Shown piece after piece: positions 7,931-27,135 of a DNA stretch of 64,000 nucleotides (within the stretch, counting starts at the first letter, position 1; every line of letters begins with the position of its first letter). The position numbers were made by a program, and so were the translations under genes. Origin of the DNA: Gemmatimonadaceae bacterium (GTDB lineage: Bacteria; Gemmatimonadota; Gemmatimonadetes; Gemmatimonadales; Gemmatimonadaceae); the NCBI GenBank assembly GCA_040882285.1, contig JBBEBQ010000010.1:1-64000 (forward strand). Reading direction: 5' to 3'. The notes under the pieces were generated by a model. It ran no database searches and was not told the DNA's origin. It saw only the letters and a list, made by a program, of their open reading frames with translations.

Positions 7931-9010
7931 TCAGTCCCCGAACGAGACTCCCGTGGCCCGGGCCGTCATGACGATGTCGTGGTTGGGGTCCACCCGCTTC
8001 GGCTCCCGCAACGCGTCCTCCAAGGGAATCGTGACGATGTGCGGCGATTGCAGCGCCAGCATCGTTCCCCACCGCTCGTCCTCTATCGCTTTGATCGCGG
8101 CACCGCCGAAGCGAGTCGCCAGCAGGCGGTCGTATCCCGTGGGCTGGCCGCCGCGCTGCAGGTGACCGAGCGTGAGCGACCGGCTCTCCTTCCCCGTTTT
8201 TTTCTGGATGATCTGCGCGAGCTCCTCGCACACTCCGCCGAGTCGCTTCGCTTCGCCGGGCAGCGACTCTCCGAGGATGGATTCGCGCCTGCCCTTCGGG
8301 TAAGCGCCCTCGGCGATCACGACGATGGAGAATTTCTTCCCCACGCGGTCGCGCGCCAGGATCTTCTCGCACACGACGTCCACGTCGTACGGGATCTCCG
8401 GGATCAGGATGACGTCGGCGGTGCCGGCGACCCCGGCGTGCAGCGCGATGAAGCCCGCGCGGCGCCCCATGACTTCCATGACCATCACGCGGTCGTGCGA
8501 CTCCGCGGTGGTGTGCAGCTTGTCGATCGCTTCGAGCGCCGTGTTGACGGCGGTGTCGAAGCCGAAGGTGGTGATCGTACCGCTGATGTCGTTGTCGATC
8601 GTCTTGGGAACGCACACGATCTTCAGCCCCTTGTCGCACAGCTTCTTCGCTATTGCCAGCGACCCGTCTCCGCCGATCGAGATCAGCGCGTCGATGCCGA
8701 GCGCGCGCGCGTTCTCCAGCAGCTCGTCCGAGCGATCGATCTCCTCGACTGTTCCGTCGTCGCGCATGCGCGGATACGAGAACGGGTTGCCGCGATTGGT
8801 CGTGCGGAGAATTGTGCCGCCGAGGTGGGCGATACCGCGCACCGTGTTCTCGTCCATCGGGATCACTTCGTCCTCGCCGAGCAATCCCGCGAAGCCGCGC
8901 CTGATGCCGCACATCTCCCAGCCGCGACTCAGGGCGGAGAGCACGGCGGCGCGGATGACCGCGTTGAGCCCCGGCGCGTCGCCGCCGCCGGTGGAGAGGG
9001 CGATTTTCAT
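7931..9010 (-). CDS. pfkA: 6-phosphofructokinase (PfkA family)
   Basis: Phosphorylates fructose 6-phosphate in glycolysis. The 359-residue protein has STGGGDAPGLN at the N-terminus, SIGGDGS (113-117), VPKTIDND (135-141, catalytic Asp139) and MEVMGRRAGF. At the two positions that separate ATP from pyrophosphate enzymes it has Gly116 (ATP-like; E. coli Gly104) but Lys136 (PPi-like; E. coli Gly124). This mixed pair is known in some family members, so the phosphoryl donor cannot be assigned with certainty. A repeat hairpin and the SelW-like gene lie immediately upstream on the same strand. Confidence 0.9.
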   Translation of the reverse strand: MKIALSTGGGDAPGLNAVIRAAVLSALSRGWEMCGIRRGFAGLLGEDEVIPMDENTVRGIAHLGGTILRTTNRGNPFSYPRMRDDGTVEEIDRSDELLENARALGIDALISIGGDGSLAIAKKLCDKGLKIVCVPKTIDNDISGTITTFGFDTAVNTALEAIDKLHTTAESHDRVMVMEVMGRRAGFIALHAGVAGTADVILIPEIPYDVDVVCEKILARDRVGKKFSIVVIAEGAYPKGRRESILGESLPGEAKRLGGVCEELAQIIQKKTGKESRSLTLGHLQRGGQPTGYDRLLATRFGGAAIKAIEDERWGTMLALQSPHIVTIPLEDALREPKRVDPNHDIVMTARATGVSFGD

Positions 9011-9018
9011 GGAGGGAA

Positions 9019-9113
9019 AGCTATTGGCTGTTGGCTATTGGCTGTTCGCTAACAACCCCAGTTCCCGGCTCTTCCGTTCTGAGCGAATAGCTAATAGCCA
9101 AGAGCCAATAGCT
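9019..9113. repeat. Imperfect hairpin of CTATTGGCTGTTGG-type units
   Basis: Arms 9019-9050 and 9082-9113 are complementary over 32 nt with three mismatches, with a 31-nt loop. Each arm is a chain of degenerate 7-8 nt units (TATTGGCTG, TTGGCTATTGG). It sits between the 5' end of pfkA and the 3' end of the SelW-like gene. The latter's stop codon (9091-9093) lies inside the right arm. Confidence 0.8.
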
Positions 9114-9321
9114 CCTTCAGTATCTCCCCCTTCTCAGCATGCCGCTTCAGCTTCGCCTTCGAGAAAATCAGCTTCCCGTCCACCGTCACCTCGAACCTCC
9201 CTCCTCCGGACGGAATCAGCTCCAGCTCCGCCTTCGGATGCGCCTTCCTGATCTCGGCGGCCAGACCGGCCGCCCGGGGCTCGTAGCTTCAAACGGTGCA
9301 GTACTCGATCGTGATATGCAT
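9091..9321 (-). CDS. SelW/Rdx-family protein with in-frame UGA (probable selenoprotein)
   Basis: Read through one TGA, this frame gives a 76-residue protein with the complete thioredoxin-like Rdx fold pattern: MHITIEYCTVU at the N-terminus, then AAGLAAEIRKAHP, LELIPSGGGRFEVTVDGKL and IFSKAKLKRHAEKGEILKELLALGY. The TGA (9289-9291) is codon 11, exactly the second position of the redox motif CxxU/CxxC of SelW-like proteins. This family is probably a small thiol/selenol oxidoreductase. A 7-bp GC stem with loop GGUCU follows the UGA by 14 nt, as expected of a bacterial SECIS. The ATG at 9321 has no strong ribosome-binding site. The alternative is a Cys-form gene inactivated by a TGC-to-TGA change. 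Confidence 0.7.
9247..9291 (-). promoter_or_regulatory. Candidate bacterial SECIS element
   Basis: On the minus strand the UGA (9291-9289) is followed by a 7-bp perfect stem GGCGGCC/GGCCGCC (9274-9268 and 9262-9256) closing the five-base loop GGUCU. The loop begins 21 nt after the UGA, inside the spacing known for bacterial SECIS elements. The E. coli fdhF SECIS also presents a GGUCU apical loop. No bulged U is evident in the upper stem, which is a weakness. Confidence 0.55.
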
Positions 9322-9480
9322 GGGTGCAAGATAATGGATACGGTGGTGAGAGTTGGCTGGCATTGGATCGCGATGGTCGCACTAACGTCACGGTGACCAG
9401 AAGATCAACTGAGAACGGATGAGCTGCCCGCTACCCGCTGCACGCTGTCAGCCACGGAGCTACGGCAAAGCGGTTGACTT

Positions 9481-10095
9481 ATGAAGAGGTACTTAATGAC
9501 ACCTGCACGTTGCCCATATGCACCGACAAAGGGTCAGCGAAGTTTGCAGCTGTCTAGCGGACAGCTTCCAGCGGGTAGCGGGCAGCTGTTCAATTCTCTG
9601 TTGCAGTTCAGGCAGCTTCAAGCGGACAGCGGGCAGCTATTCAGTTCTCTGTCGCCGTTCAATCGCAGAAGGCCGCGCCGAGGCACGACGATACTCGAGC
9701 TCGCGCTTTCCCTGTCCGTGATCAGCATCCTCTCCGCCATAGCGTATCCCCGCATCGGCGGGCTGCTCGACGGCATCCACGTCCGCGGCAGCGCCACCGA
9801 GATCCACTCGCTCTTCACCGCCGCCCGGCATCACGCCATCACTCGCGCCGAGCGCATAACGGTTCAGATCGACACCGCGCGCGCGGCCATCTCGCTCGTG
9901 GCCGGCTCCGACACCCTGCACACGCGCGGCTTCAGCGAGACTCACGGCGTCGCGCTCGCGGCCAACCGCGCGTCCTTCACCTACTCCCCGATAGGCATCG
10001 GCTACGGCGCGGGGAACATGACGCTGGTGATCCGCCGCAACGCCCGGGTCGACAGCCTGTTCATTTCGCGCCTCGGCCGCGTGCGCAGGGACTAG
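9481..10095 (+). CDS. Type IV pilin-like / GspH pseudopilin
   Basis: The recognisable part begins at about 9661 with RRRPRRG followed by TTILELALSLSVISILSAI. This is a prepilin peptidase site (cleavage after Gly, Glu at mature position 5) followed by the hydrophobic N-terminal helix. A GspH/FimT-like globular domain of about 115 residues follows. Such proteins form minor subunits of type II secretion or type IV pilus fibres in the inner membrane and periplasm. The start is uncertain: the upstream codons (9481-9655) lie in tandem repeats, so the true start may be a later TTG (9601) or CTG (9649). No other pilus genes are nearby. It overlaps the convergent hydrolase gene by 4 bp. Confidence 0.65.
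   Translation: MKRYLMTPARCPYAPTKGQRSLQLSSGQLPAGSGQLFNSLLQFRQLQADSGQLFSSLSPFNRRRPRRGTTILELALSLSVISILSAIAYPRIGGLLDGIHVRGSATEIHSLFTAARHHAITRAERITVQIDTARAAISLVAGSDTLHTRGFSETHGVALAANRASFTYSPIGIGYGAGNMTLVIRRNARVDSLFISRLGRVRRD
9540..9655. repeat. Degenerate direct repeats (about 50-bp period)
   Basis: The segment from about 9556 to 9600 (AGCGGACAGCTTCC ... TTCAATTCTCTG) recurs at 9612-9651 (CAGCTTCAAGCGGACAG ... TTCAGTTCTCTG). Within them are short GCAGCT/AGCGG units like those in other intergenic repeats of this window. The repeats are open in the frame of the pseudopilin and would encode repeated SGQL peptides, but this is probably not translated. Confidence 0.65.
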
Positions 10096-26983: not shown

Positions 26984-27135
26984 ATGGTCATCGAAGTTGG
27001 CGGCTGAATAGCCGGAAGCGTTCAGCGGGCAGCTCGCAGCTTGTCAGTCGGCGGTTGCCTTTGGCGGTATCGGCGCATATTCCCGGCCACTCCGTCGTAG
27101 CCCGCGCCCTCGCTCATTCACTATTTTTCAAGACA

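Follow-up and report, generated by a model that had tools for sequence, protein, structure and literature searches.

Bacterial SelW-like selenoproteins and the Gemmatimonadota locus

Bacterial SelW-like selenoproteins were described in 2004-2006, and the available portions of those reports cover Deltaproteobacteria, Clostridia and marine metagenomes, where the proteins have a CxxU motif, a bacterial SECIS and few Cys forms among selenocysteine (Sec) users (PMC1088965, PMC1794560). SelW of Campylobacterota (NF041051, SelTWH_Campy; CJnc60/selW in C. jejuni) is likewise a small CxxU protein of the Rdx family with an in-frame UGA. For Epsilonproteobacteria, covariation in a short SECIS hairpin with an invariant G in its loop has been reported, as has the frequency with which annotation misses the gene (PMC4607533), and Ribo-seq and proteomics indicate that C. 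jejuni SelW is read past the UGA (PMC11955535). The CxxU motif, the in-frame UGA and the hairpin recur at the locus studied here, which lies in a 64-kb stretch of DNA (the window) from a Gemmatimonadota bacterium.

The preliminary description of this stretch had claimed a full-length Rdx/SelW-like frame on the minus strand, broken by one TGA at codon 11, and we recover it as a complete frame of 76 codons (9091..9321, minus strand) ending in TAG. The translation from 9321 to 9091 reads MHITIEYCTVUSYEPRAAGLAAEIRKAHPKAELELIPSGGGRFEVTVDGKLIFSKAKLKRHAEKGEILKELLALGY, with the putative Sec at residue 11 in a CxxU motif (C8-T-V-U11); the TGA at 9291-9289 is the only internal stop. With Cys put for U, the product matches Pfam Rdx (PF10262) at 71.4 bits (cut-off 22.6). 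It also exceeds the cut-offs of the NCBIfam equivalog NF041051, SelT/SelW/SelH (seleno)protein (101.4 bits versus 88), and of TIGR02174 (56.4 versus 34.2). The C8 and U11 columns are both invariant in the SelW alignment. An AlphaFold2 model (pLDDT 92) predicts the thioredoxin-like fold of the Rdx family, with the CxxU site placed after strand 2-8; compared with bacterial SelW-related structures, the model gives Z scores of 13.4-14.0 with all residues covered. In all likelihood the product is a small thiol/selenol oxidoreductase of the cytosol, with a thioredoxin-fold CxxU site. Standard annotation would shorten the gene or omit it.

The 3' end of selW coincides with a dispersed palindromic repeat built on the heptamers AGCCAAT/AGCCAAC (9019..9113, without assigned strand), which lies between selW and the downstream gene, pfk, and extends over the last selW codons. 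Here it forms a 38-nt imperfect inverted repeat with a strong predicted hairpin (z -5.9), and 77 matches to the family occur in the genome, on both strands. An arm of the repeat supplies the last codons and the stop of selW, which suggests that the element was inserted between the two genes; it probably stands outside the selenoprotein mechanism. A second repeat family of similar style (CAGCTTCCAGCGGGTAGCGGGCAGCT..., 49-nt copies, 65-nt inverted arms) is present at 9397-9661, with weaker matches near 86-171 and 27017-27041.

Conservation of the UGA codon

An orthologue of selW was found in 139 of 198 related genomes, and 137 of these carry the TGA (9289..9291, minus strand, in the present gene), which we infer to be decoded as selenocysteine. 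The codon is invariant across 98 tabulated loci from independent genomes, and the TGA form extends outside the order, to families f4, f5, f7, f8 and f9 of the same class. The codons 3' of the TGA are under purifying selection when compared with the nearest relative (dN 0.095, dS 0.71, NG86), changes at codon positions 1, 2 and 3 numbering 10, 2 and 21 in the same comparison. The preliminary description held that Cys in close relatives, with a TGA and other decay confined to this strain, would tell against the gene; we find instead that the relatives keep the TGA and that decay is absent.

Some atypical matches were also encountered. At one locus (L029, G181:C172) the SelW frame is open, without a stop, into phosphofructokinase sequence, which could reflect a fusion after deletion or an assembly error. 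A second, divergent SelW-like match with 41% identity and two TGA codons (L114, G158:C55) accompanies a normal TGA-SelW in the same genome. Two divergent Rdx-like matches contain no stop at all (L117 in G104, and G063:C342), in genomes that both carry selA; the site in L117 reads CPRC, nearer to ordinary Cys Rdx proteins.

A putative SECIS hairpin downstream of the UGA

Beginning 14 nt 3' of the UGA there is a candidate bacterial SECIS hairpin (9256..9274, minus strand), with a 7-bp stem (GGCGGCC/GGCCGCC) closing the loop GGUCU, exactly where it had been placed; the UGA-to-loop spacing is 21 nt. Its loop sequence matches that of the SECIS of E. coli fdhF. The loop is supplied by codon +8 after the UGA, and this codon is GGU in 47 of 47 cases where it encodes Gly and AGU in 39 of 39 where it encodes Ser, while in the same genes GGT makes up about 14% of codons at other Gly positions and AGT about 4% at other Ser positions. 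A codon so fixed reflects selection on the RNA, not on the protein.

The stem tells a similar story. In a gap-free alignment of 96 sequences it is 94.8% paired, and compensatory double-change cells number 36, where shuffles gave 6.4 and slid controls 1-6, with 14 extra pair types in all; the outermost pair alone is GC in 63 sequences, AU in 16 and CG in 7. Inspection by eye of a distant sequence from family f5 (L163) suggests that its closing pair, which does not vary in the other sequences, has been reversed to G-C and that the loop is retained. The alignment shows that the predicted hairpin 3' of the selW UGA, with loop consensus RGUYU, is kept by selection at the RNA level.

A published model of bacterial SECIS elements calls for a loop of 3-9 nt, a stem of 4-16 bp, a G in the first two loop positions, a distance of 16-37 nt from the UGA and a minimum free energy of at most -7.5 (PMC13188914). 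The selW hairpin fits each of these constraints (5-nt loop, 7 bp, 21 nt, centroid -16.5 kcal/mol). The preliminary description had counted the lack of a bulged U as a weakness, correctly in that the alignment contains no bulged U of the E. coli fdhF type in the upper stem; in its stead, columns 31/41 form a non-pair in 24 of 96 sequences. The general bacterial model, however, does not require one (PMC13188914). Folding the single sequence yields an unremarkable energy (z = +1.2) and gives no support, folding energy alone being uninformative in so GC-rich a stretch. Among Rfam families none came near its gathering score for this hairpin. When the genome was scanned with a covariance model for this SECIS, selW alone was recovered; the next three matches (E 0.016-0.87) were inspected for a gene with an in-frame UGA and rejected as further selenoproteins.

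Selenocysteine machinery and its co-occurrence with selW

The absence of Sec machinery from the window, which had been listed as a weakness, is real, and all four factors lie elsewhere in the genome (2.89 Mb, 27 contigs, 97% complete). A search for selA, selB, selD and selC, as had been suggested, detected every one of them, so that neither selB nor selC, whose loss was held to tell against a selenoprotein, is missing. The tRNA-Sec gene (selC) scores 68.6 bits and is called tRNA-SeC by ARAGORN, SelB is encoded by a frame of 622 aa, and SelA and SelD score 565 and 374 bits respectively. The selD gene (L048, G000:C6, ~124.2-125.2 kb) lies 95 nt upstream of selC and has an in-frame TGA of its own (CAGU), making SelD a predicted selenoprotein too. 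No Sec formate dehydrogenase above the cut-off was found in the genome, and its molybdopterin oxidoreductase matches are without an inner stop.

Across the 198 genomes, selW and selA occur together in 128, SelW alone in 9, selA alone in 17 and neither in 44 (Fisher p ~3e-21, uncorrected for relatedness). SelB is above the cut-off in six of the nine TGA-SelW genomes without selA. Three genomes with TGA-SelW (G067, G088 and G096) have neither a full selA nor a full selB; these are drafts, 81-82% complete, one of them with a selB fragment.

By analogy with Sec insertion as known in bacteria, Sec-tRNASec would be made by SelA and SelD, and SelB would bind the hairpin loop and deliver Sec at the UGA, after which ribosomes would continue to the TAG. 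During its cycle SelW would most likely form a selenenyl-sulphide between C8 and U11, and thioredoxin or a low-molecular-weight thiol would probably serve as its reductant.

A natural switch from selenocysteine to cysteine

One member of the same family, represented by a single contig that is 100% complete (G109), has Cys at the Sec site of SelW (L113). The loop codon reads GCG here, which removes the SECIS loop motif, and this complete genome contains neither a selA match nor a SelB that passes the cut-off. A contig scan with a Cys-only pattern (U passed as C), which matched the Cys form alone, identified a near-identical Cys SelW (L134) in the metagenome-assembled genome of Gemmatimonas sp. 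PR.013, where again no SelB was found over the cut-off. Wherever a Cys orthologue matches the full-length pattern, no SelB passes the family cut-off in that genome. In G109 and PR.013 alike, the SECIS loop and SelB have been lost (SelA too in G109), and pfk is still downstream. The phylum offers a natural Sec-to-Cys switch accompanied by loss of the SECIS loop.

Alternative explanations for the in-frame UGA

A chance origin of the UGA-containing gene can be set aside on the combined evidence of TGA in 137 of 198 relatives, purifying selection and covariation in the stem. Seen in a single genome, a small frame intact but for one TGA could stem from a pseudogene or sequencing error, a Cys codon having mutated to TGA, or been wrongly read as TGA, in a gene that is decaying or poorly assembled. 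This explanation is hard to reconcile with a TGA that is invariant in 98 loci from independent genomes, with purifying selection that persists 3' of it, with the lack of other stops and with the retention of an RNA hairpin; we consider this extremely unlikely and refuted by the conservation of the TGA. Genome-wide reassignment of UGA to sense, as in codes 4 or 25 and with no involvement of Sec, would equally leave the frame open through the TGA. Yet pfk and one more gene in the window stop at TGA, many SelW orthologues themselves terminate with it, and a dedicated tRNA-Sec is present together with selA, selB and selD, which leaves this explanation a probability close to nil.

Hairpins can act as stimulators of read-through. 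It is therefore conceivable that the selW hairpin is a generic element of this kind, with ordinary suppression or insertion of Trp or Cys at the UGA, the more so as the case for Sec is drawn from sequence. Against this stand the strong co-occurrence with selA, the fit of the loop to the bacterial SECIS pattern, and the case of G109, which lacks selA and selB and shows Cys together with a lost loop, and we regard ordinary read-through as very improbable. With the UGA kept in relatives, the Sec genes present in the genome and a hairpin that covaries, the selenoprotein reading of the preliminary description is upheld: 9091-9321 is almost certainly, on this comparative evidence, a functional gene for a SelW-like (Rdx family) selenoprotein.

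Linkage of selW to phosphofructokinase

Downstream of selW, at a distance of 80 bases and on the same strand, lies a gene for 6-phosphofructokinase (pfk; 7931..9010, minus strand; NF002872 375 bits, cut-off 253; TIGR02483 426 bits, slightly below cut-off). In 77 of the 98 TGA loci selW has a pfk gene next to it in the 3' direction, on its own strand and mostly within ~100 bp; pfk also lies 3' of both Cys forms and of several members of family f4 outside the order. As the commonest family of upstream ORFs is seen at just 29 of the 98 loci, the selW-pfk link appears more conserved than the general neighbourhood, shared ancestry being uncorrected in this comparison. Conserved order, common strand and short spacing suggest that the two genes are probably co-transcribed.

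It is tempting to speculate that SelW is functionally coupled to 6-phosphofructokinase in Gemmatimonadota, where it might, for example, serve that enzyme as a dedicated redox partner or regulate glycolytic flux. Such coupling would explain why the pair survives where the Sec system has been lost and SelW carries Cys and, if true, would define a first partner for bacterial SelW, though we rate it as rather unlikely. A literature search returned no paper linking bacterial SelW with phosphofructokinase; the pair may be a new result, and it provides a testable lead on the role of bacterial SelW.

Comparison with known SelW proteins

A search at the level of titles and the beginnings of abstracts, among openly accessible papers, returned no paper on selenoproteins of Gemmatimonadota or Gemmatimonas. 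The SelW-like type of selenoprotein is already known and probably unreported for this phylum, so the novelty is taxonomic, plus the link to pfk; the gene also documents predicted use of Sec throughout an order whose members are for the most part uncultured.

Compared with the Campylobacterota SelW, to which it comes closest among known families, the present gene belongs to another phylum, is high in GC, and has a strongly fixed RGUYU loop and pfk directly downstream. Gemmatimonadota go unnamed in the available portions of the reports on the earlier SelW-like set (PMC1088965, PMC1794560), and relative to that set we are dealing with a phylum-specific lineage, again with a pfk neighbour. The Rdx/SelW-related proteins of known structure from bacteria (Atu0228, 2fa8, at Z 13.7; SAV_2001, 3dex; and that of V. 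cholerae, 2p0g) are alike in fold and in their CxxC/CxxU site, but have Cys in place of Sec and share ~25-36% identity. Mouse selenoprotein W (2npb) is a CxxU selenoprotein of the same fold (Z 9.6), but it is distant in sequence (E 1.4e-5) and relies on a eukaryotic SECIS in the 3' UTR, in contrast to the hairpin that, in the Gemmatimonadota gene, lies within the coding region just after the UGA.
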